Assembly: GCA_025923195.1 (NCBI GenBank)
Contig: JAICGJ010000039.1
Span: 1-37,432 of the forward strand
DNA: 37,432 nucleotides
From: Chryseolinea sp.
GTDB lineage: Bacteria; Bacteroidota; Bacteroidia; Cytophagales; Cyclobacteriaceae
Reading direction: 5' to 3'
A model generated the notes under the pieces. That model made no database searches. It saw only the letters and a list, made by a program, of their open reading frames with translations, and was not told the DNA's origin. A program made the position numbers and the translations under genes. Shown one piece after another: positions 4,512-28,189 of the stretch. Position 1 is the first letter of the stretch, and every line of letters begins with the position of its first letter.

Positions 4512-5231
4512 ATGTTTAGACATTGCTTCTTATTGCTAGCTTTGTGTGTGAGCGACACAATGTACGCCCAGCTAACGTATCGGGTCATGGCCATCAGTGA
4601 AAAAATCACCATCGATGGAAAATGGGATAAGCCTGTCTGGGAAAATGTCAAGCCGATCAAGATCGAGAACAGGATGGGAGAAGAGCCTCGATTCCGTCCG
4701 TTAACGGAGGCAAAGATGGTCTACGATGCTGCGAATGTCTACGTCATTTTCCGCGTGCACGACAAGTTTGTAAAAAGCACAGTAACAACCTATAACGGAC
4801 ACGTATCGGGCGACTCATGTGTTGAATTTTTCTTTTCACCCAACAGCGCCGAGCCCGGCCACTACTTTAACCTCGAAGTTAACGCTGGCGGGACGCCTCT
4901 TATTTTTTTTATCACAAATTCGAGGAAAGAATTCACCAGGCTGCCAGACAAGACAATCGATAAGATTGAGATTGCGCACTCGCTGCCTTCCGTTGTCAAT
5001 CCCGAAATTACCGACGAGGTTACGTGGACGATCGAATATCGCATTCCTCTTGAAATGCTCAAGGAGTTTACCAACGTCACCCTGCCTAAACCTGGTGTTA
5101 CCTGGCGAGCCAACTTTTACAAGACAGGGAGTGGTACCAGCAACCCACACTACTATACGTGGTCGCCAGTATCAAATCCGGAACCGAATTTTCATTTACC
5201 AAAATACTTTGGAACACTGACTTTTGATTGA
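4512..5231 (+). CDS. Exported carbohydrate-binding family 9-like protein
   Basis: A 239-residue protein with an N-terminal signal peptide (about 1-19, ending MYAQ) followed by a single CBM9-like beta-sandwich. Typical family features are ITIDGKWDKPVWENVKPI at the start of the domain, the TEAKMVYDAANVYVIFRVHD strand pair, SCVEFFFSP near residue 105, EVTWTIEYRIPLEML, and the closing WSPVSNPEPNFHLPKYFGTLTF. Stand-alone CBM9-like proteins are common in Bacteroidota and are thought to bind glycans or sit beside sugar-oxidation genes. It is the first gene of a plus-strand unit; the SelA-like enzyme begins 62 bases later. The ligand is unknown. Confidence 0.85.
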   Translation: MFRHCFLLLALCVSDTMYAQLTYRVMAISEKITIDGKWDKPVWENVKPIKIENRMGEEPRFRPLTEAKMVYDAANVYVIFRVHDKFVKSTVTTYNGHVSGDSCVEFFFSPNSAEPGHYFNLEVNAGGTPLIFFITNSRKEFTRLPDKTIDKIEIAHSLPSVVNPEITDEVTWTIEYRIPLEMLKEFTNVTLPKPGVTWRANFYKTGSGTSNPHYYTWSPVSNPEPNFHLPKYFGTLTFD

Positions 5232-5293
5232 ATCTACGATCGATGTCGCAAGGTCGCTGGTATCGATGATCATGAAACAACCTACTCACACAT

Positions 5294-6505
5294 ATGAAAA
5301 GAAGAGATTTAGTTAAAGGCATCACCCTCCTGCCACTTGTGGGCGGTTCAACGGTATCGCTGGGTGCTTCACTATCAGGTCCACTACCTGAGCGCGATTT
5401 CTTTAAAGAGCTGGGCATCCGGGTGTTCATAAATGCAGCAGGTACATACACATTTATGACGGCCTCCCTTATGCCACCTGAAGTAGTAGACGCCATCCGC
5501 GTAAGCGCCAAGCAATTTGCTCTCCTGGATGACGTGCAGGATAAGGTGGGGGAAAAGATTGCACAGATCTGCAAAGCAGAGGCGGCTATGGTTACCGCCG
5601 GGTGCTGGTCCGCACTGGTTATAGGCATGGCGGGTATACTCACGGGTATGGACAACAAGAAAGTAGCCATGCTTCCTTTCCCTGAAGAATCCGGTTTGAA
5701 ATCAGAAGTGATTGTGCAGAAATCCCACGCGAATGGATATCATTTGGCTTTAACGAACACAGGGGTTAAGATAATAATGGTGGAAACGAGCGATGAACTG
5801 CGGAAAGCTGTGAATGAAAAAACCGCATGTCTCTGGTTCCTTAACCGTGAAGCACCCGTTGGATCAATCAAACATGAAGAGTGGTTAAGTCTTGGTAAGG
5901 AATTTGGGATCCCGACGATGATTGATATTGCCGCGGATGTACCACCCGTTGAGAACCTGTGGCGATACAATGAAATGGGATTTGACCTCGTAGCAATCTC
6001 TGGCGGAAAAGGACTCCTTGGCCCCCAGAGTGCGGGCATATTGATGGGAAAGAAGGACCTGATTGCAGCGGCGCGTTTAAATGCTCCACCTCGTTCAAGC
6101 ATTGCGAGGGGGCAAAAAGTGAACAAAGAGGAAATTATTGGGATGTATGCCGCGCTTGACCGGTACGTCAAGCTGGATCACAAAAAGGAATGGAAGGAAT
6201 GGGAACAAAAGATTGCCGTCATTAATACCGCCGTAAAGAAAGTGAAGGGGATGAAAACAGAGATGATCGTGCCTCCGGTGGCCAACCATACGCCATCACT
6301 GAAGGTCACATGGGATCCCAACGTCACCACCCTTACCAGCGAAGATTTGGGGAAGCGACTCCGCGAAGGATCGCCGTCTATTGAGGTTGTATCGTGGGAA
6401 GAAAAGGATAGCATCAAGCTAACGGTGTTTATGTTGAAGAATGGTGAAGAAAAAATTGTTGCCCAAAGACTCAAAGAAGAGCTCGAAAAAGCAAGTAAAG
6501 CGTAA
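5294..6505 (+). CDS. Tat-exported SelA-like PLP-dependent enzyme (copy 1)
   Basis: A 403-residue fold-type I PLP enzyme of the group related to selenocysteine synthase SelA and D-glucosaminate-6-phosphate ammonia-lyase DgaE. The probable Schiff-base lysine is K239 in AISGGKGLLGPQSAG, and D211 (MIDIAAD) should contact the pyridine nitrogen. The substrate-side motif INAAGTYT is near 47 and AAMVTAGCWSALV near 97. Unlike cytoplasmic relatives it starts with a twin-arginine signal (KRRDLVKG plus a hydrophobic run to about residue 28), implying export folded with cofactor. There are no selenium-system genes nearby, so SelA function is not suggested. It lies between the CBM9-like and PQQ/cytochrome c genes, and a paralogue lies at 13503-15128. 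The reaction is unknown; beta-elimination or ammonia-lyase chemistry is plausible. Confidence 0.88.
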   Translation: MKRRDLVKGITLLPLVGGSTVSLGASLSGPLPERDFFKELGIRVFINAAGTYTFMTASLMPPEVVDAIRVSAKQFALLDDVQDKVGEKIAQICKAEAAMVTAGCWSALVIGMAGILTGMDNKKVAMLPFPEESGLKSEVIVQKSHANGYHLALTNTGVKIIMVETSDELRKAVNEKTACLWFLNREAPVGSIKHEEWLSLGKEFGIPTMIDIAADVPPVENLWRYNEMGFDLVAISGGKGLLGPQSAGILMGKKDLIAAARLNAPPRSSIARGQKVNKEEIIGMYAALDRYVKLDHKKEWKEWEQKIAVINTAVKKVKGMKTEMIVPPVANHTPSLKVTWDPNVTTLTSEDLGKRLREGSPSIEVVSWEEKDSIKLTVFMLKNGEEKIVAQRLKEELEKASKA

Positions 6506-6552
6506 CGGCCTTATGATCGTCACGTTATATCTTGAAGTTCCATAACCATATT

Positions 6553-8322
6553 ATGAAGAGAGTACTATTTTCAAGCGCCCCGCGTATGTCTTACGTTGCG
6601 CTCGGCGTGGCGTTGCTGTTGTTTAGTCAGTGTGCACAAAATGAAAGGCTTCTTCCTCCTGGCGATCCTGATAACGGGAAGATTTCATTACCGGACGGCT
6701 TTGAGGCTGTCGTCGTTGTTGACAGCGTGGGCAGGGCCAGGCACATTGCTGTTAATGACAATGGCGATATCTACATGAAACTTCGGGGAGTCACGAGCCA
6801 GGGGGGCTCGGTGGCGCTTCGCGACTCAACAGGCGATGGCAAGGCGGATATTATAAAATACTTCGGTACATACAAAGATCCCAGGTCTTACGGTACCGCT
6901 ATGCGCATTCATAATGGTTATATATATTTTAGCACCACTGGGACTGTATACAGGAACAAACTTATCCCGGGTCAGCTATTGCCAGATACTACAACGGAAG
7001 CAATTGTCATCGACGATTATCAGAGTCGCCCGTACGGAACTGAACATATTGCCAAGCCTATCGCATTTGATAATAAGGGTCACCTTTACGTGCCGTTCGG
7101 AGCCCCAGGCGATATGTGCCAGGTGGAAAACCGGGTCCCGGGATCTCCTGGAAAATTTCCCTGTCCGGAACTGGAGATCCATGGTGGTGTCTGGCAGTTC
7201 GATGCCAACAAAATCGGCCAGAAGCAATCGGATGGCAAACGATACGCTACGGGTATTCGCAGCCTTGTCGCGATGGAGTGGAATTTTGAAGATGGAAATC
7301 TCTTTGCTATTCAGCACGGACGCGACGACTTTTTCCGCACATGGCCTGAGCTGTATTCAGCATATCAAAGTGCTTTGTTGCCGTCAGAAGAGTTTTTTCG
7401 CGTGACAGAAGGCTTAAACGGAGGATGGCCCTATTACTATTTTGATCAAGTCCAGAACAAGAAAGTATTGAATCCCGAATATGGCGGTGATGGTAAGAAA
7501 AGCGATGGCGCGGATACGGTCGCCATGCCATTGATAGGCTTCCCGGGACACTTTGCACCCAACGATCTTCTTTTTTATAAAGGGGATCAATTTCCGGCCC
7601 GGTACAAGAATGGCGCCTTCATCGCGTTTCATGGTTCTACGATACGGGCGCCCTATCCGCAGGCAGGATATTTCGTTGCTTTTGTCCCGTTCAACAATGG
7701 AAGTCCGTCGGGGCCATGGGAAGTATTTGCTGACGGATTCGCTCAATTGGACACGATCGTGAATGTCTTCGATGCGAAGGGGCGCCCTATGGGACTTGCA
7801 GAGGGGCCAGATGGCTCATTGTACATCACCGAGAGCGTGAAGGGTAAAGTTTGGAGGGTCATGTTCAAAGGCAACAAAGAGACGTTTGGTGAACCACAAC
7901 TCGCCGCAATGGAGCAAAGAAAAATCCGTACCAACGTCAAAACTCCCGATGAAATTAAAGACAACTTGTTAAAAGGAAAACAACCACCGGGCGCCGAGGC
8001 CTACACCCGCTACTGCGCCTCGTGTCATCTTCCGGGCGGACAGGGAGATGGTAACAGGTATCCACCTTTGTTTGGTTCTGAGTGGGTAAGTGGTCCGAAG
8101 GCGAGATTGATTAAAATAGTACTGAACGGAATGTCGGGCCCCATTACGGTAAGACGTAAACCATACGATGGCGTAATGCCAGCGCATGCATTTCTGAGCG
8201 ATCAACAGGTAGCAGAAATCCTCACTTATATAAGGACAAGAATGAATCATGGCGGAACACCGATTTCCGCGGAAGAGGTGCAGACCGTACGGTCGGAAGA
8301 AACGAGCGGACAAAGCCGGTGA
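6553..8322 (+). CDS. PQQ-type sugar dehydrogenase-like lipoprotein with C-terminal cytochrome c
   Basis: A TTG at 6532 extends the frame, but ATG at 6553 gives a better lipoprotein signal: MKRV..., a hydrophobic stretch and the lipobox LFSQC with lipid-bearing Cys27 (589 residues). Residues about 40-440 resemble a six-bladed beta-propeller of the soluble aldose dehydrogenase type, with repeated blade motifs such as ARHIAVNDNGDIYMKL, AKPIAFDNKGHLYVPFGAPGD and PMGLAEGPDGSLYITES. The C-terminal domain (about 475-570) is cytochrome c: CASCH near 488-492 binds haem, and a methionine in DGVMPAH is the likely sixth ligand. The fusion should oxidise a sugar or alcohol outside the cytoplasm and pass electrons to the respiratory chain. 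It is 47 bases after the SelA-like gene. The substrate is not determinable. Confidence 0.9.
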   Translation: MKRVLFSSAPRMSYVALGVALLLFSQCAQNERLLPPGDPDNGKISLPDGFEAVVVVDSVGRARHIAVNDNGDIYMKLRGVTSQGGSVALRDSTGDGKADIIKYFGTYKDPRSYGTAMRIHNGYIYFSTTGTVYRNKLIPGQLLPDTTTEAIVIDDYQSRPYGTEHIAKPIAFDNKGHLYVPFGAPGDMCQVENRVPGSPGKFPCPELEIHGGVWQFDANKIGQKQSDGKRYATGIRSLVAMEWNFEDGNLFAIQHGRDDFFRTWPELYSAYQSALLPSEEFFRVTEGLNGGWPYYYFDQVQNKKVLNPEYGGDGKKSDGADTVAMPLIGFPGHFAPNDLLFYKGDQFPARYKNGAFIAFHGSTIRAPYPQAGYFVAFVPFNNGSPSGPWEVFADGFAQLDTIVNVFDAKGRPMGLAEGPDGSLYITESVKGKVWRVMFKGNKETFGEPQLAAMEQRKIRTNVKTPDEIKDNLLKGKQPPGAEAYTRYCASCHLPGGQGDGNRYPPLFGSEWVSGPKARLIKIVLNGMSGPITVRRKPYDGVMPAHAFLSDQQVAEILTYIRTRMNHGGTPISAEEVQTVRSEETSGQSR

Positions 8323-8358
8323 AGTTCTTTTTTTTTTACACAAAGGCCCTAGAGCTGA

Positions 8359-8452
8359 ATTTCGAAGGTCGATCTCCGAACGTCGAATCCCCGATGTCTA
8401 GCTTCTGATATTCGCGTTCTTCGCGGATTTACTTTGCGAGCATTGCGTGAAC
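8359..8452. repeat. Degenerate intergenic repeats (TTCGA-type and GCG-type)
   Basis: Between two convergent genes, 8359-8400 carries TTCGA/TCGAA-rich words (TTTCGAAGGTCGATC, GAACGTCGAATCC). Bases 8412-8452 carry TTCGCGTTCTTCGCGGATTT ACTTTGCGAGCATTGCGTG. Related words recur at 10425-10665 and 13424-13498 (TTCGA type) and at 11944-11990 and 19319-19392 (GCG type). These look like decayed copies of dispersed intergenic repeat families. No open frame covers them. Confidence 0.5.
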
Positions 8453-8484
8453 TGAATTTTTTTATAGAAGCACATGCTAATCAA

Positions 8485-9120
8485 TCATTTATTGCCACGG
8501 TATGTGATGTCAGAGAATTCCACCCTGCAGCTATTGCCTACTGGCGATTGAGAGTAGAATCCGATTCTAATTTGCTCAGGTTTTTGATAAACGAACTCTC
8601 TAATCACGGTCCACTCTTTTCCGTCTGGTGAGGTCAGGAAGTTAAAAACTTTTCCGACTTTCGTAATCCTCAAGAACACATCTTTCCCCTGAGGGATAAA
8701 GTATGCGTCATCGGTAACTTGATCCTTCACAACTGAGATTCCTAAGATGGGCTTTTTGTCGATATACTGGAGAAGAGCTTTTGCCCAATTTTCCTTATCA
8801 CTATAGAGAAGTATTGCGCCTCCGTCATATTGATTTTCAAAGGAAGGTTTTATCTGCGCTGAAAAGACAAAGTTGGCGTCCGGTTTAAAGAGAAATTTTG
8901 GCGCGTTGTGTCTGAAATAACTTCCATTCGCAGGATTATGAAGGTCCGTTTCTTTACCTGCGGTCATTACGATAGAATTATCGGATAACACTTTAAATTC
9001 TTTGGGATTTTCAAGCAGCGTGTAGGGATGAGGGATGGCTTTTATTGGTGGGAGGGATGATTGGCCACACACCGTTAGAGATGGAAGGCAGAGCACGAAA
9101 AACCAGAAATGTGTTTTCAT
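8485..9120 (-). CDS. Exported DUF1349-like concanavalin-type beta-sandwich protein
   Basis: A 211-residue protein starting with a signal peptide (MKTHFWFFVLCLPSLTVCGQ, about 20 residues). The remainder matches the DUF1349 / 'regulation of enolase 1' jelly-roll pattern: a ligand strand ANFVFSAQIKPSFENQYDGG, then AILLYSDKENWAKALLQY, a middle VTDDAYFIPQGKDVFLRITKVG, and the typical SPDGKEWTVIREFVY and IRIGFYSQSPVG closing strands. The fold is related to concanavalin-like lectins and is common in exported glycan-related proteins; no catalytic function is assigned. It is divergent from the aldo/keto reductase gene across 236 bases that contain a 14-base palindrome. Confidence 0.85.
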   Translation of the reverse strand: MKTHFWFFVLCLPSLTVCGQSSLPPIKAIPHPYTLLENPKEFKVLSDNSIVMTAGKETDLHNPANGSYFRHNAPKFLFKPDANFVFSAQIKPSFENQYDGGAILLYSDKENWAKALLQYIDKKPILGISVVKDQVTDDAYFIPQGKDVFLRITKVGKVFNFLTSPDGKEWTVIREFVYQKPEQIRIGFYSQSPVGNSCRVEFSDITYRGNK

Positions 9121-9309
9121 TAGATTTTATTTAAAAATAAAGCAATGAAAAAGACCATGATCCATATGAGTGTGACGGGAAAGATGTCAGAGCAAAAGGA
9201 ATTGATCCATAGGCAACAGTGCGTTCGTTATTATAGATCCCAGTAAGAAATGTAAAACTTTTTAATTTCAAAAAATAGACGCCTGATCAACTTTTTAGTG
9301 ACTGAAATC

Positions 9310-9323
9310 GCGTTACATAACGC
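9310..9323. promoter_or_regulatory. Perfect short inverted repeat upstream of the aldo/keto reductase
   Basis: GCGTTACATAACGC has 6-base arms and a 2-base spacer, and ends 33 bases before the reductase start codon. The position suits an operator in the divergent region shared with the DUF1349-like gene. No cognate regulator is encoded nearby, so this is a weak call. Confidence 0.3.
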
Positions 9324-9356
9324 TATATTGATGCAGAACAAATCATGATTTAGAAA

Positions 9357-10409
9357 ATGGAATATAGGCAATTGGGAAACTCGGGACTAAGAGTTCCGGT
9401 GCTTAGTTTTGGCACAGCAACGTTTGGCGGTGCAAACGATTTCTTTAAAGCGTGGGGTAGTACTGAAGTGCGGGAGGCTACGCGAATGGTGAACCAGTGC
9501 CTGGACGCGGGGGTAAATTTATTCGATACTTCAAATGTATACTCTCATGGAATGGCGGAAGAAATATTTGGTAAAGCAATTTCCGGATTGCGTAACAAAA
9601 TATTGATTTCTACGAAGGCGACTTTTCCTATGTCAGAAGAGGTGAATGATTATGGGTCTTCGCGACTCAACTTAATAAAGAGCTGTGAAGATAGCCTAAG
9701 ACGGCTCGGCACTGAGCACATCGACATCTACCATATGCACGGATTTGATGCCAACACTCCAGTTGAGGAAACGTTGAAGGCCTTAGACAATTTGGTGACG
9801 AGCGGAAAAGTACGTTACATCGCATGTTCCAATTTTTCAGGTTGGCATCTCATGAAATCATTATCTGTTTCAGAACGCTATGGATGGGCAAAATATGTTG
9901 CTCATCAAGCTTACTATTCACTGGTCAACCGCGATTTTGAATGGGAGCTAATGCCATTGGCTATTGATCAAAAGATAGGGACCATTGTGTGGAGTCCCTT
10001 GTCAAGCGGCTTGTTAAGTGGCAAGTATCGCAGAAACCAACCGATACCCAAGGACGCGAGAGTCGCCCAGGGAGGAAGTCCGGTGCCAGGCGAAGCCGTT
10101 GATAACGAAAGATTGTATAAGATCGTTGACCGACTGGATGTCATAGCCTTTGAAACTGGAAAAACCGTGGCTCAGGTATCCCTTAACTGGCTTTTACAAC
10201 GTCCCACAGTTTCCAATATCATCATTGGCGCAAGAAATGAAGAACAGCTTAAACAAAACCTTGATGCTGTCGGATGGAATTTAACGATCGATCAAGTGAA
10301 GTCCCTGGACGAGGTTAGCGAGGTGTACCCGGTTTATCCGTATTGGCACCAGCGTCAATTTCCTATGCTGAATGCAGCGCCGAAATTATATGGAGACAGA
10401 AACGGGTAG
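9357..10409 (+). CDS. Aldo/keto reductase
   Basis: A 350-residue cytoplasmic NAD(P)H-dependent oxidoreductase with the (alpha/beta)8 barrel of the AKR superfamily. All four catalytic residues are visible: D57 (NLFDTSNVYSHG), Y62 in the same motif, K87 (LISTKATF) and H128 (DIYHMHGFD). The N-terminus MEYRQLGNSGLRVPVLSFGT is typical of AKR families similar to YajO and potassium-channel beta subunits. The cofactor loop IIIGARNEEQLKQN is near residues 290-303. There is no signal peptide, so unlike most of its neighbours it acts inside the cell. Its context among sugar-processing genes suggests a sugar aldehyde or keto-sugar substrate, but none can be named. Confidence 0.93.
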   Translation: MEYRQLGNSGLRVPVLSFGTATFGGANDFFKAWGSTEVREATRMVNQCLDAGVNLFDTSNVYSHGMAEEIFGKAISGLRNKILISTKATFPMSEEVNDYGSSRLNLIKSCEDSLRRLGTEHIDIYHMHGFDANTPVEETLKALDNLVTSGKVRYIACSNFSGWHLMKSLSVSERYGWAKYVAHQAYYSLVNRDFEWELMPLAIDQKIGTIVWSPLSSGLLSGKYRRNQPIPKDARVAQGGSPVPGEAVDNERLYKIVDRLDVIAFETGKTVAQVSLNWLLQRPTVSNIIIGARNEEQLKQNLDAVGWNLTIDQVKSLDEVSEVYPVYPYWHQRQFPMLNAAPKLYGDRNG

Positions 10410-10424
10410 TTTCGGCATGAATCG

Positions 10425-10665
10425 AATTTCGAAGTACGCTTCCATTCATCATTCGATGTTCCTTGTTCGATGTTCTGTATTCATGCATTTTTTTAACACC
10501 GAATATCGATCAAAGAATATCGAACATCGAAGTATGCGCCCTTCGACATTCATCATTCCTTGCTCGGGGTTCGATAGTTAATTTTAGAGAATTTTTTGGA
10601 CATTAAATGTAGATCAAAGATATCGAACATCGAAGTGGCCTTCCATTCGACATTCGATGTTTTTT
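10425..10665. repeat. TTCGA-type inverted intergenic repeat, two adjacent copies
   Basis: Between convergent genes, two tandem copies of a long imperfect inverted repeat are visible. Left arms carry CATTCGATGTTCCTTGTTCG (from about 10449) and CCTTCGACATTCATCATTCC (from about 10541). Right arms carry GAATATCGAACATCGAAG (from about 10516) and GATATCGAACATCGAAGTGG (from about 10618). RNA from either strand could fold into long hairpins, which would suit a bidirectional 3' end. The same words recur at 13424-13498. The small open frame across this stretch is not credible. Confidence 0.65.
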
Positions 10666-10672
10666 GAAATTT

Positions 10673-11887
10673 TCATTTTGTAAATTTCACAGCAGAAATT
10701 CCATTCAAATCCCACACGATTTTTCCAGCGCGAATCGTTAACTCCGCTTCAAATTTTTGGTTGCCTTCAATTTTATTGCCACCGGCGTCGACAAAACCGA
10801 AATTTCCGTCGCGTAAACTCAAGACTGCGACATCGGCCACTGCTCCTTCACTCAAGTGTCCGAGATCAGGTCGTTTGATCGATCTTGCCGGACCCGCCGT
10901 GGCCCGTATGATAATATCTTCTTTTGTCATACCCATACTCAAATATTTGGACATCACATTTAACATGTCTTTCATTCCGGCATTCATGCTGAATCGATGC
11001 AGGTCCGTGCCAAAAGAATTGGGAGCGAGCCCCTGTTGCAACGCCGGCATCGCTTCACTAAACCAAAAGCCAGCTCCGCCATGACCAAGGTCGAATAAGA
11101 TTCCTTTTTTTTGAGCTTCCTTTACGAAGGACCGCACTTTGCCTTGCTCATCGATGACTGACATTCGTTCCGACACTTTTTCAAAAGAGTGTGTAATAAT
11201 GTCTCCGGGGCGCATGCGTTTCAACTGGTCTTCCAATGAGTATTGTGGTAGATGACATTCTACGAACAAGGGCATGTTGGATCGGCTGGCTGCGGCTAAA
11301 GCGTTTTCAAACGGCGTCCATTGGCTCCCTTCGTAGTGACCAATTTTTACGCCGACGATGACATCCGGATATTTTCGAATTGCCTCGGTAGCTTTAGCGG
11401 GGTCCATATCATTGATATTTTCCTGCGCCTGCTTACCGCTCATGCCAGCACCGGCAATATTCAGAAATGCAAGGATACGTGTTTTGGATTTATCAATCAC
11501 CTGATCCTTAAAAACAGGAAAGTTCCGCCAACCGGAAGTTCCCGCATCCACCACGGTTGTAACACCTGACCTAAACGTAAAATCATCGGGAGATAAACTT
11601 AAAATGCCATCTGCAAAAGTATCCGGATTGCTTCCTACGAAGACATGGGTATGTATATCAATTAGCCCTGGGCATACATACATGCCAGCGACATCAACAA
11701 TTTTCTTTGCTTTCTCGGACGAAATATCAGGTCCTACCTTCACAATCTTCCCATCTGCAATAGCGACATCCAATTGAGCATTAATATTGTTTGCAGGGTC
11801 AACGACATGCCCGTTTTTAAGTAATAGGTCAATTTCCTGAGCGTGTGCAAAGGAGGTCAGCAACAAAAAAACAAGGATCGTCAACAT
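10673..11887 (-). CDS. Exported amidohydrolase/deacetylase-family metallohydrolase (copy A)
   Basis: An amidohydrolase-superfamily protein resembling the EF_0837/AHA_3915 dihydroorotase-like group. The frame is open to 12022, but the first 45 codons include a GCG-type intergenic repeat, so I start at ATG 11887, which opens with a hydrophobic export segment (MLTILVFLLLTSFAHAQ); this gives 404 residues. Metal ligands in this numbering are H79 and H81 (IDIHTHVF), a probable carboxylated lysine K181 (VGVKIGHY), H212 (FVECHLPQ), H233 (DIITHSF) and D294 (GTDLH). It is last in a minus-strand unit, 35 bases or more after its paralogue. This family is known to occur beside SelA-like PLP genes, as here. 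The substrate is unknown; amide or cyclic-amide hydrolysis or deacetylation is expected. Confidence 0.88.
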   Translation of the reverse strand: MLTILVFLLLTSFAHAQEIDLLLKNGHVVDPANNINAQLDVAIADGKIVKVGPDISSEKAKKIVDVAGMYVCPGLIDIHTHVFVGSNPDTFADGILSLSPDDFTFRSGVTTVVDAGTSGWRNFPVFKDQVIDKSKTRILAFLNIAGAGMSGKQAQENINDMDPAKATEAIRKYPDVIVGVKIGHYEGSQWTPFENALAAASRSNMPLFVECHLPQYSLEDQLKRMRPGDIITHSFEKVSERMSVIDEQGKVRSFVKEAQKKGILFDLGHGGAGFWFSEAMPALQQGLAPNSFGTDLHRFSMNAGMKDMLNVMSKYLSMGMTKEDIIIRATAGPARSIKRPDLGHLSEGAVADVAVLSLRDGNFGFVDAGGNKIEGNQKFEAELTIRAGKIVWDLNGISAVKFTK

Positions 11888-11943
11888 TGCAATACCATGC
11901 TTGCTTTGTGGGGTCTTTGGCTGTTTAGTAAGAGCGACAGAAA

Positions 11944-11990
11944 TTTTCTCCGCAAAGGCGCTAGGGCGCAAGAATTTGCCAAGGAATTTT
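11944..11990. repeat. GCG-type intergenic repeat inside the apparent 5' end of amidohydrolase A
   Basis: The words TCTCCGCAAAGGCGCTAGGG and GCGCAAGAATTTGCCAAGG belong to the CGCAAAGGCGC-type repeats seen in intergenic DNA of many Bacteroidota. Related but more decayed copies lie at 8412-8452 and 19319-19392. Its presence in the extended reading frame argues that the frame upstream of 11887 is not coding. Confidence 0.55.
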
Positions 11991-12017
11991 ATGTCGTATT
12001 TGTGCGTACCACTTAGC

Positions 12018-12070
12018 ATCACCTGATTGCCCGAATACCGACCACCTGATTACCTGATCACCGATTACCT
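12018..12070. repeat. Short degenerate tandem repeat between the two amidohydrolase genes
   Basis: Variants of ACCTGATTAC / ACCTGATCACCGATTACC follow each other about five times in 53 bases (ATCACCTGATTGCCC, GACCACCTGATTACCTGATC, ACCGATTACC). The array includes the stop codon and last three codons (G-N-R) of copy B, so the C-terminus of that protein is partly written in repeat sequence. Function is unknown. Confidence 0.5.
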
Positions 12071-13374
12071 GCTGCCGCTACTTCGTCCCAAGCCGGTGCG
12101 CTAAGGCCATTCAAGTCCCATACAACTTTTCCGGCCCGAATAGTCAGCTCTGCCTCTAGCTTTTGCGTGCCTTTCAATTTGGTACCACGGACATCCACGA
12201 ATCCAAAATCACCTTTTCTCACATTGAAGACTGCTACATCCGCTTCGGTGCCGACACTCAGATGACCCAGTTCTTTTCTGTTGATGACATTAGCAGGCGC
12301 CCACGTAGCCCCGGCGATCGCATCCTGAACAGACATTCCCATGTTGATGAACTTTGACAGAACATTTGCGAGATCCTTCATTCCCCCATTCATACTTTGA
12401 ATATGCAAGTCTGTGCTGATAACATCAGGTTTAAAACCCTGCTTCATGGCGGGGACCGCCTGGCGCCACGAAAAAGCACCGCCCCCATGACCAACATCGA
12501 AGATGATGCCTCGTTTCCGAGCATCGGCGATAAATGGTTTTACTTTTCCATTTTCATCCACTACCGTCTCACGTTTAGTGGGACCGTAAGAATACGTGTG
12601 TGTGAATATATCGCCGGGACGCAGGTGTTTCATGAACAACGCTTCAAGGGAGTTGGGAGGATCATGTTCCCCAAAATCAACCATAACCGGTACGTTGGCT
12701 AATGTACCGGCTTCGACGGCGCGGTCCACTTGCGTGAAATCACCCCAATAATGAGCGGCTTTAATGCCTACGATAATATCCGGAAAAAGTTGTTTGATCA
12801 TATGCGCCGTCATTACCGGATTCATGTCTGACACATCCTGTTCCTCATAGCGTCCAACCATACCGGTACCGACAATGTTTAATAAAGCAAGCACCCTAGT
12901 TTGAGACTTGTCAATGGTTTGCTCTTTCATCTGGCGAAAGTTTCGCCATCCGGAAGAACCGGCATCGACTACTGTGGTCACCCCGGCTCGAAAAGTAAAG
13001 CCATCCGGTGCTACGCTTGTCGGGCCGTTAGCGATGTAGGCATCCAGATCGTTTCCCATAAAGACGTGCACATGCATATCGATTAGGCCTGGCGTTACAA
13101 ACAAGCCTTTGACATCGATTACTTTTTTAGCATTGGTTACGGGTATGTTGGTTGCAACCTGCACGATTTTTCCTTCGTAAATGGCGACATCCATATTTGT
13201 GTCGATTTTATTTTTTGGGTCGATAACATGTCCTCCCTTTAATAAAATATCGATCTGTTGCGCCTCCAGTGTGCCAATTTGAATCAAACAAAAAAGAAGA
13301 GGAATCCACCAGAATGCATGTACAGCGAAACCACGACGTAAATACTTTTGATTTACCATGCCTTGTTTAATCAT
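12058..13374 (-). CDS. Exported amidohydrolase/deacetylase-family metallohydrolase (copy B)
   Basis: A 438-residue paralogue of the downstream copy A, with parallel motifs throughout (GVTTVVDAGSSGWRNF versus GVTTVVDAGTSGWRNF; the same ending KLEAELTIRAGKVVWDLNG). An export signal spans about residues 1-39 (YLRRGFAVHAFWWIPLLFCL..., cut before QQID). The likely binuclear metal site is H101 and H103 (IDMHVHVF), K205 (VGIKAAHY), H237 (FGEHDPP), H259 (IFTHTYS) and D322 (STDLH). It is 128 bases downstream of the SelA-like copy 2, separated by an inverted repeat, and is followed after about 35 bases by copy A in the extended frame. ATG at 13374 is used; M6 is an alternative. The substrate is unassigned. 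Confidence 0.9.
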   Translation of the reverse strand: MIKQGMVNQKYLRRGFAVHAFWWIPLLFCLIQIGTLEAQQIDILLKGGHVIDPKNKIDTNMDVAIYEGKIVQVATNIPVTNAKKVIDVKGLFVTPGLIDMHVHVFMGNDLDAYIANGPTSVAPDGFTFRAGVTTVVDAGSSGWRNFRQMKEQTIDKSQTRVLALLNIVGTGMVGRYEEQDVSDMNPVMTAHMIKQLFPDIIVGIKAAHYWGDFTQVDRAVEAGTLANVPVMVDFGEHDPPNSLEALFMKHLRPGDIFTHTYSYGPTKRETVVDENGKVKPFIADARKRGIIFDVGHGGGAFSWRQAVPAMKQGFKPDVISTDLHIQSMNGGMKDLANVLSKFINMGMSVQDAIAGATWAPANVINRKELGHLSVGTEADVAVFNVRKGDFGFVDVRGTKLKGTQKLEAELTIRAGKVVWDLNGLSAPAWDEVAAAGNR

Positions 13375-13423
13375 ACTTTGTCATAATCAAGATTTTTAAT
13401 TAACTAAGCCCACTCCGTCATCC

Positions 13424-13498
13424 ATTCGATATTCGGTGTTCCCTGTTCGATATTTGATGTTTAATATCGAACAAGGAACTCCGAATAATGAATATCGA
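13424..13498. repeat. TTCGATATTC-type long inverted repeat after SelA-like copy 2
   Basis: The left arm 13424-13454 contains TTCGATATTCGGTGTTCCCT then GTTCGATATT. The right arm 13463-13498 contains AATATCGAACAAGGAACTCC then GAATAATGAATATCGA. The arms pair over about 30 bases with a small bulge, giving a strong hairpin with an 8-base loop. It lies just after the 3' end of SelA-like copy 2 and before amidohydrolase B, where it could attenuate read-through or protect the upstream mRNA. It belongs to the same family as 10425-10665. Confidence 0.65.
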
Positions 13499-13502
13499 GG
13501 TT

Positions 13503-15128
13503 TTAGGTCGCTAGCGGTGGCCCTCCTGGGATCATGATCCGCTTCCTTTCCATCTTGTAGCTTGATTTTTTGGCTGTAAACTTGGCATTAAGGTATTCAC
13601 CCAAAAATATGGAGCCAGAGATGGTGGACCCGGAAACTTTCCCCGAGAACATATAGGTGATACCATCGCCTGGACGACGCAGATTACTTCTGAGTGTCAC
13701 TTGATCTCCTTCCACCATTCCCATTATTTCCTGCTGCGAAAAATCCGAGGTATGAGTGCCCTGAATCCAATTTCCGTCTTGTTCGATGAAAAATTTGTGA
13801 TCGCTTTTGCTGGTGAAAAATTCGACCGTTACATCCCAGTAGCCACCGATTGTTACTGAGGGTGCCGTCATGCTGGTAGACCTTGGGTTGCGCTTCTGAG
13901 AAAGCAGGTTATAGATTCGCTCAGCGACGACCTTGTCATTGCCCGGCTGCATTTGCCCCGTGGTAATATGGATCGATGTTGCACCAGGTCCGTTACTGCT
14001 ACCAATCGCGATACGCGGTTTAGTGCGTGCGAAGTTTTCCGCTACCTCGTCGCCCGTAATATTTAACACATCGGGATCCCATGAGATTTTTAGCCTAGGG
14101 GAACGGTTGGAAAGCTCCGTAGGCTCCTCTACAGTGGTCTGGATACCATTTATTTTTGAAACTTGCTTTGAAATATTGTCAAGGTAGGAAAGCCATGTTT
14201 TCCACTCAGCCTGGTGGTCGCGGCTAACCCATGCCTCTACCGCCGCAAGCATACCCATCATTTCTTCCTTGCCTACTTTATTGTCGCGCCCAGGGCCATG
14301 GTGAGGGGAACTGGCCTGCCAGGCAGACATAAGAAGATCTTTGTTTCCCAGCAATAACCCTGCGCACTGTGGCCCACAGATCGCTTTTCCTCCGCTGTAT
14401 GCTACGACAGTGGCGCCTGCTTGCAAATGCACATTTGGGATGGTAAGGATCTCTGCTGCAGCGTCGGCAAGAATGGGTATATTTTTGGGCTTCGCTATTC
14501 CCGCTATGACTTCTAATGAAAGAGGCTGGCCGCTAACGGAGTCGTTACCCGTCATAATATATATTAACGCCGTCTTTGGATTGATGGCGTTCTCCAGTTC
14601 TTCAGCAGTATTTACCGTGATGATCGTCACACCAATGTTACGGACGGCATGGTCGTAGGCATTTCGGGAGTAACCGGGGATGATAACTTCCGTTTTTTCA
14701 AATCCGGTCAGATCGGGGATGCGAATCAATTTCTCGGGGTTGCCTCCTGTAACACAAGCAGCGGTGACATGCTTCATGCCGGCGGCGCACCCTGCTGAGA
14801 CCATGCCCCATTCCGCCCCCGTAACTGCCGCTAATCTCCGGCCGACACCGTAAGCCAATTCGTCGTATTGTACAAAGTATCCTGATGCTGCTTTCATCGC
14901 TGCAATTACTTCGGGCCGCTCAACCGATCCACCGATTATGGTAAATGTACCGCGACAATTGATAACCGGATCCACACCTATAGACTCGTAAATATTAGGC
15001 CCAATCACAAGTGGACCCGAGGGGAGCAGTCCATTTTCGTCAGCCGGAGATGCTGCTGATGTGAGCGGTATAAAACTTCCGGCGAAAGGTAAAACAGATA
15101 AATTCTTAATGATGTCTCTGCGTTTCAT
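13503..15128 (-). CDS. Tat-exported SelA-like PLP enzyme with C-terminal beta domain (copy 2)
   Basis: The frame is open to 15158, but ATG at 15128 starts exactly at the twin-arginine signal MKRRDIIKNLSVLPFAGSFI, giving 541 residues. Residues about 30-430 are the SelA/DgaE-like PLP fold: the probable catalytic lysine is K248 in AYSGGKAICGPQCAG, with D222 (ILADAAAE) behind the ring and INCRGTFTIIGGS near the substrate end. A second domain of about 95 residues follows (GGYWDVTVEFFTSKSDHKFF ... GDQVTLRSN ... YMFSGKVSGSTISGSIFLGE), a lipocalin-like beta fold absent from copy 1. It is the first gene of a minus-strand unit with two amidohydrolases. It probably works in the periplasm, with the extra domain as a binding or assembly module. 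The reaction is unknown. Confidence 0.88.
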   Translation of the reverse strand: MKRRDIIKNLSVLPFAGSFIPLTSAASPADENGLLPSGPLVIGPNIYESIGVDPVINCRGTFTIIGGSVERPEVIAAMKAASGYFVQYDELAYGVGRRLAAVTGAEWGMVSAGCAAGMKHVTAACVTGGNPEKLIRIPDLTGFEKTEVIIPGYSRNAYDHAVRNIGVTIITVNTAEELENAINPKTALIYIMTGNDSVSGQPLSLEVIAGIAKPKNIPILADAAAEILTIPNVHLQAGATVVAYSGGKAICGPQCAGLLLGNKDLLMSAWQASSPHHGPGRDNKVGKEEMMGMLAAVEAWVSRDHQAEWKTWLSYLDNISKQVSKINGIQTTVEEPTELSNRSPRLKISWDPDVLNITGDEVAENFARTKPRIAIGSSNGPGATSIHITTGQMQPGNDKVVAERIYNLLSQKRNPRSTSMTAPSVTIGGYWDVTVEFFTSKSDHKFFIEQDGNWIQGTHTSDFSQQEIMGMVEGDQVTLRSNLRRPGDGITYMFSGKVSGSTISGSIFLGEYLNAKFTAKKSSYKMERKRIMIPGGPPLAT

Positions 15129-15625
15129 GGGTGTTGAATTTTTTGATAATGCCGACACGCACTAAAGATAAAGGTATTCTCGGCTCGTCTTCTGTGCTGA
15201 CAGACAAATTAAGTTTTTTTAAGGTGTTCATCAACGTTGAACGAAGTTAGTGGCTCATCCGCAGATATGAGCGCGACTGCACAAGAAACACAAGGCACAA
15301 TGACATGCCCTGCTTGCCACAGCAACATCATCGCTTGATCACAAAAAGCTGAGTGCGCAGCGAGGGCAAAGAGCCTAATGATGCAATTCTGGTTGTCTTT
15401 TAACATTCTTTCATTTTGTCAGCTCAGTTTTTGCCTTACGTACTTTTTTTAGTGACATCCGTTGTGTTTTTTATAGGCGACATGAGTTGGAGTATTCAAA
15501 GTATTTCCTAAATGAGATACGCCAAACCGCGTCGCTGCGCTATAAAGCCAACTTCAACTAAGACCTTCAAAAAATTCCTTTTTTTTGGTTAGATTAAGAC
15601 AAAAAGTTGTGGAAAAACCGAAAGA
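15129..15625. other. Divergent intergenic region with no convincing gene
   Basis: 497 bases between the SelA-like copy 2 start and the membrane protease start. It presumably holds both promoters, but I found no clear -33/-7 pair. A 65-codon minus frame at 15209-15406 and a 23-codon plus frame ending in TCPACHSN near 15305 overlap each other; neither has support as a gene. The stretch ends with a T-rich tract (15580-15589). Confidence 0.5.
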
Positions 15626-16405
15626 ATGAAGGTATCCCTGACCCCAAAAAACAGTATAGCATTACTTTCCTTGTCCTTCATAATGCAGGAAACACATGAG
15701 ATTGCACACACCGTGGTGGGGAGGATCATTTGCGGCTGTTGGGGAAAAAGAAATTTTAATTTGTGGGGACTTTGTAGTGGATGTTCTGAAGTTGAGCCCT
15801 TGTCAATCTTAGCTACTTTTGCAGGGCCATTCTACACTTTTTCGATCATTTGGATTGGGTATTTCCTGCTTTTCAAATCTTCTCCTAAATTAAAATCAAT
15901 AGGATTTGCACTAATTATTGCCAGCATGCCATTATCCAGAATACTAACACCCATTTTTGGAAGCGGTGATGAAATTTACGCGCTAAATAAGCTGTGGAAT
16001 AATCATACATTAGCGTGGATAGTTGGATTGCTCTTTGTTTTTGCACTCGTCATTCCACCGGTAGTCAAAGTATGGAATGTAATTGGAAATAAAAGGAAAA
16101 TATTGTGGTTTATCGGCTTGTTATTAGTGCCGTTTCTCATGACCGGCGCAATAGTATTTGGGATATTACAATCTTTGCTTTTAGAAAACGGCGTTATGAA
16201 TGCCTACTGGATATTAGGTTCACCAAAATTGGTTACAGTGTGGCTGACTTTTTTGATAATTGTTTTTACAGTATTTAGTAAATCGATATCAACCTTGTTG
16301 AGGCATTCACCTGAAAATAAAGATAATAATACAACTTCAAGCGTTATGAGATCACCATTAAAAGGTGTACAAGGCGCTGACCTTAAAGCTGCCCCCCCAT
16401 TCTGA
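15626..16405 (+). CDS. M50-like integral-membrane zinc metallopeptidase (putative)
   Basis: A 259-residue membrane protein with roughly six hydrophobic segments (about 8-22, 57-82, 91-110, 128-150, 158-182, 200-220). The zinc motif HEIAH at 24-28 lies in the first segment (QETHEIAHTVVGR). An AGPFYTF motif at 66-72 resembles the GGP/AGP loop that follows HExxH in M50-like families, and SMPLSRIL...GSGDE at 100-116 is a possible third-ligand region with D115. The cysteines in IICGCWG and GLCSGCSE could form a metal or disulfide site. The last 25 residues are low in order and not membrane-like. Site-2-protease-like cleavage is inferred from motifs only. No anti-sigma factor or other obvious substrate gene is adjacent. 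Confidence 0.7.
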   Translation: MKVSLTPKNSIALLSLSFIMQETHEIAHTVVGRIICGCWGKRNFNLWGLCSGCSEVEPLSILATFAGPFYTFSIIWIGYFLLFKSSPKLKSIGFALIIASMPLSRILTPIFGSGDEIYALNKLWNNHTLAWIVGLLFVFALVIPPVVKVWNVIGNKRKILWFIGLLLVPFLMTGAIVFGILQSLLLENGVMNAYWILGSPKLVTVWLTFLIIVFTVFSKSISTLLRHSPENKDNNTTSSVMRSPLKGVQGADLKAAPPF

Positions 16406-16547
16406 TCGTGCTTATCAGGAACTAAGAGAAGGGATTAGACAACGATTCAGGTTTGTCTTCTGAATAAAGAGGGAGGTACTGTTTGACGTTAATACGATTA
16501 TTAGATGAACCATAACTAACCTATTTGGCATTTCAAAATCAACTTCT

Positions 16548-16745
16548 ATGACCGAGAGAGAACTGCTCAAACTGGAAGGAACGATCCGTAAGAAAATGGA
16601 AGATATCAGAAAACAACGTGTGAGTCTCAGAGATTCTGGCATTGGTGGGTTGATGAATACGTTGAAGAAGGTGGACCTGAGCCTTTACGAAAAGATTCTT
16701 CCAGAATACAAAAAGATGGTCGCGGAGAGCAACATTTTTAAATAG
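16548..16745 (+). CDS. Small helical protein of unknown function
   Basis: A 65-residue frame with a coding-like composition: charged amphipathic helices (MTERELLKLEGTIRKKMEDI, YEKILPEYKKMVAES) around a short glycine-containing turn (DSGIGGLMNTLKKVDLSLYE). No signal peptide, membrane segment or known motif is seen. It lies 142 bases after the M50-like gene and 40 bases before the sugar isomerase-like gene on the same strand, and could share the latter's transcript. A longer minus-strand frame covers the same bases but looks less protein-like. Confidence 0.55.
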   Translation: MTERELLKLEGTIRKKMEDIRKQRVSLRDSGIGGLMNTLKKVDLSLYEKILPEYKKMVAESNIFK

Positions 16746-16785
16746 CTCCTTAGTATCTTCAAGCACCTTTTAAATTCGTGCTGGT

Positions 16786-17715
16786 ATGTCCACCCGGAGA
16801 GAATTTGTCAAACAGACTGTGCTAGCGACTTCGGCGTTCTACATGACACCATCCATTCAACCCACATCCTCCTTAGAAATTTCATTGGCGGAATGGTCAT
16901 TGCACCGCGGCCTTAAAGCTGGAACGATCGATCACCTCGATTTCCCTTCTATTGCAAACAAACAATTTGGGATCAACGTTGTCGAATACGTAAATGGGTG
17001 TTTCGGCAGTTACAAGAGAGATTTCAAGGAAGCTGGAAAGGACATGGCCTATCTACGTGAACTGCTGAATCGAAGCAAAGATGCAGGTGTCACAAATCAT
17101 CTCATCATGGTGGATGAGGAGGGATTCCTGGCGATCCCGGACGACAAGGAGAGATTGGTGGCTGTGGAGAATCATAAAAAATGGGCCGATGCAGCTAAAT
17201 TCCTGGAATGCAAAACGGTTCGTGTTAATCTCCATGGACCCGGGGAAAGCACGGCAAAAAAAACTGCTTCCGTAGATTCTCTTTCACGGCTAGGTGAATT
17301 TGCAGGACAATTGAATATCAACATTGTAGTTGAAAATCATGGAGGCGATTCATCCAAGGGTTTTTGGATTGCTGACGTTATGCGTCAGGTGAACAAGCCT
17401 AATGTCGGTACGCTGCCCGATTTTGGAAACTTTTGCATATCCCATGAGTGGGGTACTACCCAGGGTGAATGCAAGGAGATTTACGATCGTTATAAAGGCG
17501 TTGAGGAAATGTTACCCTTTGCCAAGGGTGTTAGTGCCAAAAGCTATGATTTTGATCTCAACGGCGAGCAGCCAAAGATCGACTACAAGCGATTGATCAA
17601 ATTAGTAAAGGCCTCCGGCTTTAAAGGGTTTATTGGAATAGAGTTCGAAGGTGAAACTCAACCAGAGGACGAAGGTATAAGAAAAACAAAGGCATTGCTT
17701 CAGAAGTACCTGTAA
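16786..17715 (+). CDS. Tat-exported sugar phosphate isomerase/epimerase-like TIM barrel
   Basis: A 309-residue protein of the xylose isomerase-like / AP endonuclease 2 superfamily. It starts with a twin-arginine signal (STRREFVKQ and a hydrophobic run to about residue 25), so the barrel should fold before export. Barrel motifs include FGINVVEYVNGCF near 63, KTVRVNLHGPGES near 145, the metal-site segments NIVVENHGGDSS near 182 and TLPDFGNFCISHEWG near 212, and the last strand GFKGFIGIEFEGE near 285. Those E, D, H and E positions are where the family binds its divalent metal. It may epimerise or isomerise a free sugar in the periplasm; the substrate is unknown. It continues the theme of exported sugar enzymes seen from 4.5 to 15 kb. 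Confidence 0.9.
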   Translation: MSTRREFVKQTVLATSAFYMTPSIQPTSSLEISLAEWSLHRGLKAGTIDHLDFPSIANKQFGINVVEYVNGCFGSYKRDFKEAGKDMAYLRELLNRSKDAGVTNHLIMVDEEGFLAIPDDKERLVAVENHKKWADAAKFLECKTVRVNLHGPGESTAKKTASVDSLSRLGEFAGQLNINIVVENHGGDSSKGFWIADVMRQVNKPNVGTLPDFGNFCISHEWGTTQGECKEIYDRYKGVEEMLPFAKGVSAKSYDFDLNGEQPKIDYKRLIKLVKASGFKGFIGIEFEGETQPEDEGIRKTKALLQKYL

Positions 17716-22250: not shown

Positions 22251-23693
22251 GTGAGGATATTGCAAACTGGTGACATAAAATACATCATAAAAAAAATCCA
22301 TTTCGGCACAGCAACCGCTGTTATGTTCCTTTTTTGGTGCTGTATCGTGATTTGGGGATGTTCGCCAAAGGTTGCAAAAGTCGATTTACCTTATGATACC
22401 CTACAAGCCTTCTCCTTATCTGGTGAGAAAGAAGCGCCGGCAAGATGGTGGCTGGCCTTTGAAGACCCCGACCTCAATTCCCTGATTGATTCGGTCCTAC
22501 GTGGTAACCTGCCTTTGAAGAGTGTTTGGTACCAACTGGAAGAAGCGGGTGCGTTGGTAGATGTTACAGCATCGGCGCGGTGGCCACAACTCTCCCTCGG
22601 GATTCAAAGTGGATTCAGCGTGCCAGAGCCAGACTTTGTCGGAGGTGAAAACACACAAGTTTCGCTAAGGGCCGCCTATGAGGTCGACCTATGGGGGCGG
22701 ATCAGATACAGTATGCATGCCGATCAATACCAATTCAAGGCAAGCTATTACGATTATAAGACAGCTGCGGTCACACTTTCAGCCGAAACGGCCTTAACGT
22801 ATTTCCGACTGAAAGCCACCAGCGAGCAGCTGCGGTTGACAAAAGAACAACTCGATACCAATGAAAAAGTCCTGGCGCTTATCAGAGCCCGTTTCGCCAG
22901 CGGCCAAGTGCGCGGCGTGGATATCCTGCGACAGCAGCAATTGATCGAAAACACCAAAGAGCAACAGATCGGACTGGAAATGCAGTTGGAGGTCCTTAAA
23001 AATCAGCTGGCTGTTCTTTTAGGCACGCCGCCGGGAGAGGATTTCAGAAACTCCATCCATGTTTTTGATTCGTTGCCTGAACTTCCTCCCTTACCACAAA
23101 CGGGCGTTCCGCTCCAATTGGTAAACCGAAGGCCCGATGTCCTTAACGCGTACTACCAGCTCCAGGCGGCCGATCGGGACTTAGCCGCTGCCATTAGCAA
23201 CAGATATCCGCGGCTTAATTTTTCTATTGCTACTGCCGTAAGGTCAAATACTATAGAAGGTCTGCTTGAATCGCAAGCTGGCTCTCTAGCGGGTAGTTTG
23301 CTGGCTCCTTTATTCTATGGTCGCAGCCTAAATGCGCAGGTAGACCGTGCGGAAGCAGTAAGACAACAACTCACCAACTCCTACGGGCAGACTGTTCTTA
23401 CTGCTTTTCAGGAGGTAGAAAACGCCCTGGTACAGGAAGTGAAACTAACGGACCAAATCGAAGTGATTGAAGAGCAGCTGGAACTGGCGGGGAAAACCTT
23501 CCGACAGCTAGGAATCGAATACCTTAACGGCTCATTGCCCTATATCGATGTGTTGGCAACGCTTACTCAGCAGCAACAGCTTCGCAGGGGGCTCACTGAT
23601 GCCAGGATGACTTTGTACGAAGTCAGGATTGGCTTGTACCGTGCTTTGGCAGGAGGTTTCGAAACAGCAAGCATTGCTGGCGAAGATCTGTAA
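22251..23693 (+). CDS. RND efflux outer-membrane channel lipoprotein (TolC/OprM/NodT family)
   Basis: A 480-residue outer-membrane factor. The GTG start at 22251 is chosen because it supplies a basic n-region (IKYIIKKIHFG) before the hydrophobic core and lipobox VIWGC (Cys37); ATG at 22323 would leave no charged region. The early motif ARWWLAFEDPDLNSLIDSVL and two repeated OEP halves are typical: coiled helices such as LSAETALTYFRLKATSEQLR and the second-half RRPDVLNAYYQLQAADRDLA AA. It should trimerise as the exit duct of the pump encoded by the next two genes (adaptor 44 bases on, then the permease). The TGA of a 17-codon upstream frame overlaps this GTG. Confidence 0.94.
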   Translation: MRILQTGDIKYIIKKIHFGTATAVMFLFWCCIVIWGCSPKVAKVDLPYDTLQAFSLSGEKEAPARWWLAFEDPDLNSLIDSVLRGNLPLKSVWYQLEEAGALVDVTASARWPQLSLGIQSGFSVPEPDFVGGENTQVSLRAAYEVDLWGRIRYSMHADQYQFKASYYDYKTAAVTLSAETALTYFRLKATSEQLRLTKEQLDTNEKVLALIRARFASGQVRGVDILRQQQLIENTKEQQIGLEMQLEVLKNQLAVLLGTPPGEDFRNSIHVFDSLPELPPLPQTGVPLQLVNRRPDVLNAYYQLQAADRDLAAAISNRYPRLNFSIATAVRSNTIEGLLESQAGSLAGSLLAPLFYGRSLNAQVDRAEAVRQQLTNSYGQTVLTAFQEVENALVQEVKLTDQIEVIEEQLELAGKTFRQLGIEYLNGSLPYIDVLATLTQQQQLRRGLTDARMTLYEVRIGLYRALAGGFETASIAGEDL

Positions 23694-23737
23694 GGAAGAC
23701 CTCAGAAAACAGTCTCATAGCTTTAGATTCATTGCGT

Positions 23738-24952: not shown

Positions 24953-25045
24953 TTCTAATGAGTCGTCGTTTAGGCATGTGGCTAGCGGAACCAGGAGGTC
25001 AACATTTCTATATAAAAGCAGTTATCCTTAAACATACACAGTGCA

Positions 25046-28000: not shown

Positions 28001-28189
28001 ACACCAATCATTTTGGAAACATCCAGTCAGGCTTATCAGCTAATTCCTATGGCGATTTCTCTGGGGTTCGGAATAGTCTTTTCCACTGCCATCATTCTTG
28101 TGATTGTGCCTTGTCTCTATTTGATCCTGGATGACATTGCAAAGGCGACGAAAGAAAAAGCAAAGGAACTAAAGGCTGCCTCGAATTGA
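25046..28189 (+). CDS. RND family efflux permease (AcrB/MdtB-like)
   Basis: A 1047-residue inner-membrane proton-driven exporter of full RND length. TM1 follows [20 protein letters not shown], and the large periplasmic domain starts [20 protein letters not shown]. The paired proton-relay aspartates D413/D414 are in [19 protein letters not shown] of TM4. The internal repeat begins near residue 545 ([20 protein letters not shown]), and TM10-12 include [20 protein letters not shown]. The second half retains NDS rather than DD, as expected. The pattern is of the multidrug HAE family rather than heavy-metal RNDs. There is no TetR/AcrR or two-component regulator beside it. Substrates are unknown. 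Confidence 0.95.

Follow-up and report, generated by a model that had tools for sequence, protein, structure and literature searches.

We analysed a window of 37,432 nucleotides, which is an entire contig (C39) of a 6.57 Mb genome of a Chryseolinea sp. (Bacteroidota), and found in it an island of exported enzymes that centers on two proteins resembling the pyridoxal 5'-phosphate (PLP) enzymes DgaE and SelA. Known enzyme families are combined in it in a way that is real, conserved and apparently undescribed, and we consider it probable, with real room for doubt, that part of an oxidative pathway is encoded here, one that is extracytoplasmic and non-phosphorylated and that degrades N-acetylhexosamines, namely N-acetylglucosamine (GlcNAc) and/or N-acetylgalactosamine (GalNAc). 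Its conserved unit is 4512-8322 on the forward strand plus 10673-15158 on the reverse strand, where six core genes lie in two convergent runs. The forward run comprises an exported CBM9-like protein (4512..5231; PF16011 at 9.4e-36), a short-type DgaE/SelA-like PLP protein with a twin-arginine translocation (Tat) signal (5294..6505), and a pyrroloquinoline quinone (PQQ)-type sugar dehydrogenase with a fused cytochrome c domain (CxxCH), a likely lipoprotein whose start is probably an internal Met (6532..8322), with intergenic gaps of 62 and 26 bases. The reverse run, read from 15158 to 10673, comprises a long-type Tat-exported DgaE/SelA-like PLP protein (13503..15158, start probably Met11 at 15128) and two exported amidohydrolases/deacetylases of the cog3964/PRK09237 type, copy 2 (12058..13374) and copy 1 (10673..12022), with gaps of 128 and 35 bases. 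Open reading frame (ORF) and profile searches confirmed the position and family of every gene named in the initial annotation of this DNA. The same genome holds a second island on contig C21, where PLP, CBM9, PQQ, Tat-RidA, amidohydrolase, DUF5009 and GH18 proteins are encoded in one run.

For both PLP proteins the best profile was TIGR01437/DgaE (152.2 and 152.7 bits, E ~1e-44, below the curated cut-off of 385.3), and a further profile tested on both scored 134.5 and 144.3 bits against a cut-off of 600. Each protein has a twin-arginine motif, MKRRDLVKG in one and MKRRDIIKN in the other, as the initial annotation had reported, and the RR motif of the short type recurs in 10/10 aligned sequences. 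The Schiff-base lysines it had named, K239 and K248, also hold, with K239 in the short protein and K258 of the 551-residue long ORF being K248 when counted from the internal Met. The closest relatives of the short protein among the matches listed are from Chryseolinea (84 and 87% identity), and its structure model (pLDDT 81.1) gave Cap15 and DgaE as the best fold matches. The long protein differs by a C-terminal extension of ~110 residues, which had no Pfam match in the window copy.

Evaluating the active site across 117 sequences of the exported clade aligned with DgaE revealed a conserved core and an altered substrate pocket. The Schiff-base Lys and Asp189 were kept in 117/117, and Arg242, Lys245 and Glu249 were likewise invariant, while the column of Arg226, the docked carboxylate partner, held Lys in 68 sequences and Arg in 42. 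According to the available text of the DgaE study (PMC9529869), the substrate phosphate was docked near arginines 301, 332 and 346, His-163 is the C3 proton donor, and the H163A enzyme retained activity and released its enamine into solution; for the breakdown of such enamines the authors point to enzymes of the RidA kind. In the exported clade two or more Arg/Lys residues at columns 301/332/346 occurred in 0/117 sequences and a single one in 6/117 (column 346 never held Arg or Lys), and His was present at column 163 in 0/117 and at column 162 in 5/117. From the loss of the phosphate arginines and of His-163, we predict that the substrate carries no phosphate and that the enamine is released for RidA to act on, and the exported clade resembles a naturally occurring H163A change.

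Surveys of co-occurrence revealed that these genes travel together. A TIGR01437 scan of 247 Bacteroidota genomes gave strong matches (E 3e-44 or better) for 11 genes, all of them in 5 genomes, and NF006689 amidohydrolases (E 1e-80 or better) and Tat-RidA proteins (E 1e-20 or better) were each found in exactly those 5; the chance of one such coincidence is 1.4e-10 if genomes are treated as independent, which they are not. The next best TIGR01437 match was 7e-10, and weak matches of this kind, at E 7e-10 or above in another 158 genomes, which may be partial hits to other PLP enzymes, were left out of the counts. Within the 5 genomes, the 10 amidohydrolase and 6 RidT genes listed all fell inside island stretches, as did 11/25 RidA-family matches and 3/10 RraA-family matches, where these stretches make up ~0.5% of bases. 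The island families were absent from 20 control stretches, drawn from four island genomes and 12 of them from one, except for one BASS and one SusC match. The initial annotation had proposed conserved co-occurrence as the test of its grouping, and with the same 5/247 genomes recovered and the controls nearly empty, the grouping lies far beyond chance.

We then compared loci of relatives from named genomes, using the best 80 of at least 514 relatives, with 79 loci from more than 20 genera kept. ORFs of 88 loci were clustered, family names come from running one or two members of each family against profiles, and counts refer to the 62 loci of at least 20 kb, with the 25 shorter ones and the window set aside. 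At these 62 loci we found an amidohydrolase at 55, any Rid protein at 49, the PQQ protein at 45, RidT at 40, the CBM9 cluster at 37 and any lactonase at 27, followed by ECF (20), FecR (19), SusC (17), BASS carrier (16), SusD (15) and RraA-like (13) genes. After collapsing to 32 groups at 80% PLP identity, amidohydrolases remained in 27, Rid in 24, PQQ in 21 and RraA in 10. The PLP gene was followed directly by an amidohydrolase gene in 70 of 120 cases, with a median gap of 36.5 bases.

The partners encoded at related loci outside the window are exported RidA, lactonases, an RraA-like protein and carriers, and, in a few lineages, a cytosolic keto-deoxy-galactonate kinase (DgoK) and a 2-keto-3-deoxy-6-phosphogluconate (KDPG) aldolase. 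RidT matched PF01042 at 2.9e-20 (one member) and RidL matched PF14588 and PF01042 (two members), and an Arg that we take to be of the catalytic type was kept in 55/55 RidT and 20/20 RidL sequences. By a simple home-made rule that called 12 Tat, 103 general secretory (Sec)/transmembrane and 20 lipoprotein signals among 338 control ORFs, Tat-type starts were predicted for 112/120 PLP proteins and 52/55 RidT, and some export signal for 108/114 amidohydrolases, 56/58 PQQ proteins, 17/21 RidL and 14/14 RraA-like proteins, as compared with 0/8 for DgoK and 0/7 for the aldolase. DgoK (PF05035), the Eda-type aldolase (over cut-off) and a galactonate-type major facilitator superfamily (MFS) carrier (below cut-off) share operons with the PLP and amidohydrolase genes. 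Five loci (L054, L055, L056, L060 and L064, the last with its amidohydrolase in two pieces) encode PLP, amidohydrolase, DgoK, aldolase, MFS carrier and PLP proteins on one strand, and L037 shares this order as far as the carrier. Since the PLP protein and amidohydrolase have signals and DgoK and the aldolase have none, we predict a split between periplasm and cytoplasm at the carrier. As a separate observation, enolase-superfamily proteins close to galactonate dehydratase lie near 4/62 islands (L050, L053 and others), and 4/5 of these have a Tat-type start.

Both amidohydrolases of the window scored above the NF006689/PRK09237 cut-off of 371, with 434.5 and 451.6 bits. The related enzyme Atu3266 binds a binuclear metal through ligands that we take to be HxH, Lys, His, His and Asp. 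Among 107 amidohydrolases of related loci, the HxH, the Lys (106/107), one His and the Asp are kept, and the strand-5 His is replaced by Asp in 100/107 and Glu in 7/107. Copy 1 of the window has Glu and copy 2 has Asp at this column, and Asp is also found there in an amidohydrolase of Granulicella tundricola (Acidobacteriota), so that a strand-5 Asp/Glu is, judged from the alignment, a trait common to the exported clade.

The oxidizing enzyme of the window matched PF07995 (GSDH) at 7.4e-10 and a cytochrome c domain, making it a GSDH beta-propeller with haem c, and the haem c residues C495, C498 and H499 were invariant in 24 sequences. Its structure model (pLDDT 80.6) was closest to AA12 pyranose dehydrogenase, soluble PQQ glucose dehydrogenase and aldose sugar dehydrogenase, which supports a role in sugar oxidation, with the oxidized position and substrate not being fixed by such a fold.

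A plasmid operon of G. tundricola, whose intergenic gaps range from -8 to 156 bases, points to the substrate. It encodes an RraA-like protein, a short PLP protein, RidA, a long PLP protein, an amidohydrolase, a lactonase, a flavin adenine dinucleotide (FAD) oxidase, a small protein and GH35. Compared to the window, identities were 37% for the short PLP protein, 39% over 537 residues for the long PLP protein, which has the same architecture and keeps the C-terminal extension, and 52% for the amidohydrolase; both PLP architectures thus occur in two phyla. The FAD oxidase, which occupies the place that the PQQ-type protein takes in Bacteroidota islands, matches almost full length (4.2e-162) to the N-acetyl-D-hexosamine oxidase of Ralstonia (NagOx/HexNAcO, EC 1.1.3.29, 7zzk). 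That enzyme is described, in the available parts of two reports, as oxidizing C1 of GlcNAc to the lactone and preferring GlcNAc and GalNAc (PMC9299179, PMC9850908), and in the available part of one its authors state that no pathway for oxidized N-acetylhexosamines is known in that organism (PMC9299179). This homologue makes an N-acetylhexosamine the best substrate candidate, and because the characterized oxidase prefers N-acetylated sugars, oxidation would more likely precede deacylation, which reverses the order that the initial annotation had proposed.

From the gene content, co-occurrence, predicted signals and active-site residues that we observed, we infer the reactions, their order and the substrate of the following route. 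C1 oxidation to a lactone would be carried out by the PQQ dehydrogenase/cytochrome c protein here, or by the N-acetylhexosamine oxidase homologue in Granulicella, and the lactone would be opened by SMP-30 or 7-bladed lactonases encoded at related loci. The exported cog3964 amidohydrolase would then take the acetyl group off the N-acetyl-hexosaminate, after which the Tat-exported PLP protein would eliminate the 3-OH of the D-hexosaminate and, since it does not have the His-163 of DgaE, should release an enamine that a Tat- or Sec-exported RidA would convert to keto acid and ammonia. The resulting 2-keto-3-deoxy acid may be imported by an MFS or BASS carrier for DgoK kinase and KDPG aldolase, or alternatively be cleaved outside by the exported RraA-like protein. 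The window itself encodes only the putative oxidation, deacetylation and elimination steps, with a Tat-RidA present at the second island on C21. More specifically, the His-163-lacking Tat PLP lyase may free an enamine and depend on a dedicated exported RidA, which would amount to enamine handling outside the cytoplasm, and the route may also be the missing physiological pathway for N-acetylhexosamine C1-oxidases, a joint proposal that we make tentatively and hold at slightly less than an even call. The periplasmic, non-phosphorylated N-acyl amino-sugar route of the initial annotation is thereby retained in outline, through the co-occurrence, the lost phosphate arginines, the oxidase homologue and the kinase/aldolase/carrier operons, and its order of steps and three of its proposed members are given up.

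Several observations weigh against this route. With the strand-5 His replaced in 107/107 amidohydrolases, activity is not transferable from Atu3266. The oxidase link comes from one Acidobacteriota locus, and the oxidase there has no recognizable signal peptide, with upstream stops excluding an N-terminal extension. Of the 62 loci, 7 are without an amidohydrolase, 13 without Rid and 17 without the PQQ/cytochrome c protein, and L031, L033, L038, L059 and L091 have none of the three. The argument from the product comes from few lineages, because DgoK, the aldolase and the MFSb carrier are at only 5, 4 and 3 of the 62 loci (2, 1 and 1 of the 32 groups), and KDPG aldolase matches in the window genome are below cut-off. 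NagB scored over cut-off in all 5 island genomes, which indicates the standard GlcNAc route there; the GH20 matches of these genomes all lie outside the island stretches, and two genomes, G126 (C34) and G203 (C43), have GH20 a few kb from a NagB-type gene and away from the islands, such that an exclusive role in GlcNAc use is weakened. Where glycosidases do lie beside islands they fit amino sugars, but this is seen at 2/88 loci for GH20 (L044 and L048) and 1/88 for the GH18 of the C21 island (L017). As for the PLP enzyme, the oxygen-using PLP enzyme Cap15 is likewise a fold match of the short type, and a His is found elsewhere in the same loop in 35/117 sequences. That RidA generally accompanies the loss of His-163 does not hold outside the clade (8 relatives, 7 plasmid loci): plasmid loci without the His pair had an annotated Rid at 1/6, in a gene table that is incomplete by its own note, and the Rhizobium etli enzyme retains the His pair yet adjoins a RidA. 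The link between His-163 and RidA is hence a prediction for the exported clade and not a rule.

Some of these points would suit a different substrate. It is unlikely, if worth keeping in view, that the same chemistry acts on other N-acylated D-beta-hydroxy-alpha-amino acids (amino-sugar uronates, muramate-derived acids, or D-Ser/D-Thr derivatives), with the PQQ protein oxidizing something else. Two or three PLP genes at 20/62 loci and the paralogous amidohydrolases suggest several substrates, Atu3266 is reportedly weak on N-acetyl-D-serine and good on acetyl-(R)-mandelate, and NagB, with GH20 beside it rather than beside the island in two genomes, fits this as well. Set against it are the N-acetylhexosamine oxidase homologue in the Granulicella operon, the DgoK, KDPG aldolase and galactonate-type carrier genes in operons of few lineages, and the SusC/SusD pairs and CBM9, which point to carbohydrate.

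It is improbable, in our view, that the exported PLP proteins act as oxygenases or carry out oxidative decarboxylation instead of being ammonia-lyases. PvdN, another PLP enzyme with oxygenase chemistry and one that is said to be exported by Tat, offers a precedent, and Cap15 (8t7j) ranked first among structural matches to the model and second by sequence. Cap15 uses oxygen on a beta-hydroxy-alpha-amino acid, according to the available text of its description (PMC7497351). DgaE is, however, closer than Cap15 by sequence (1.2e-28 vs 1.2e-22), R301, R332 and R346 are kept in Cap15 and lost in the exported clade, and genes for RidA, a keto-deoxy kinase and an aldolase are what elimination, and not decarboxylating oxygenation, would call for. 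That these are unrelated exported enzymes merely sharing polysaccharide-type islands is an explanation we find scarcely credible: such islands do collect diverse enzymes, and SusC, SusD, ECF and FecR are present at the frequencies given above, but three families sharing the same 5/247 genomes, short-gap adjacency, a conserved set in a second phylum and absence from the 20 control stretches all argue otherwise.

The N-acetylhexosamine route can be compared with several known systems. Pseudomonas and Agrobacterium degrade glucosamine oxidatively, with a PLP glucosaminate dehydratase converting non-phosphorylated glucosaminate to 2-keto-3-deoxygluconate; their route resembles the one proposed for the islands in its non-phosphorylated substrate. 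The Dga pathway of Salmonella (the DgaABCD phosphotransferase system (PTS), DgaE lyase and DgaF aldolase) uses a PLP enzyme homologous to those of the islands, in which the Schiff-base Lys and core residues are the same, and its product, in the available text (PMC9529869), is a 2-keto-3-deoxy acid, as expected for the islands. It differs in being intracellular and acting on a 6-phosphate made by the PTS, whereas the islands have Tat export, loss of the phosphate arginines and His-163, and an exported RidA, with no PTS seen in the island loci. In other bacteria, for example Klebsiella and Rhizobium jaguaris, DgaE-family and cog3964 genes adjoin or lie within ~1.5 kb, as in the islands; relative to such pairs, the partnership of the exported clade with an oxidase, lactonase and RidA would be new. 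In the GlcNAc route predicted for Natrarchaeobius, chitinase clusters contain genes for a glucose dehydrogenase, a RutC (Rid) family protein and a homologue of DgaE; its authors, in the available text, postulate a kinase with a phosphorylated intermediate and interpret RutC as a repressor (PMC12343721). We found no description in the open-licence literature of an exported RidA, a Tat PLP protein with an amidohydrolase, the combined pathway, or an exported glucosaminate lyase. The island route would thus be set apart from known oxidative amino-sugar degradation by its extracytoplasmic place, non-phosphorylated substrate and exported Rid partner.

If this is true, a route for amino-sugar deamination would be placed in the periplasm, and exported proteins annotated as selenium transferase, aminotransferase class V and endoribonuclease at many Bacteroidota loci would be explained. 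It would also provide a pathway for N-acetylhexosamine oxidase, giving purpose to an oxidase without a known role. The exported clade, without His-163 and with Rid nearby at 49/62 loci, is also a natural setting in which to ask why this residue is retained in DgaE.

Four further genes lie between or beside the core runs, and three of them had been counted as pathway members in the initial annotation. We dropped the DUF1349 protein (8485..9120, reverse), a membrane ORF (15626-16405) and a Tat-motif xylose-isomerase-like TIM barrel (16786..17715, forward), as none had a counterpart at the 87 other loci, some of them short, at the clustering threshold used, and the first and last are probably not part of the island. 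The cytoplasmic aldo/keto reductase (9357..10409, forward), whose family is found at 4/87 other loci, was likewise dropped, its membership being doubtful. A further DUF1349 gene, on a Rhizobium etli plasmid (L127, 1127-1711), is close to a pair of DgaE-like and RidA genes and may be compared with the one at 8485-9120. A promoter scan returned 23 matches against 21.7 expected, which is chance level, and a terminator scan returned 22 against 14.5 expected, a result that we did not use. Elsewhere in the window, inspection by eye picked out a methyltransferase with Cys-rich ends at 270-1118 that looks like an arsenite methyltransferase, and consecutive genes for an outer-membrane factor, a membrane-fusion protein and a resistance-nodulation-division (RND) transporter at 22251-28189.

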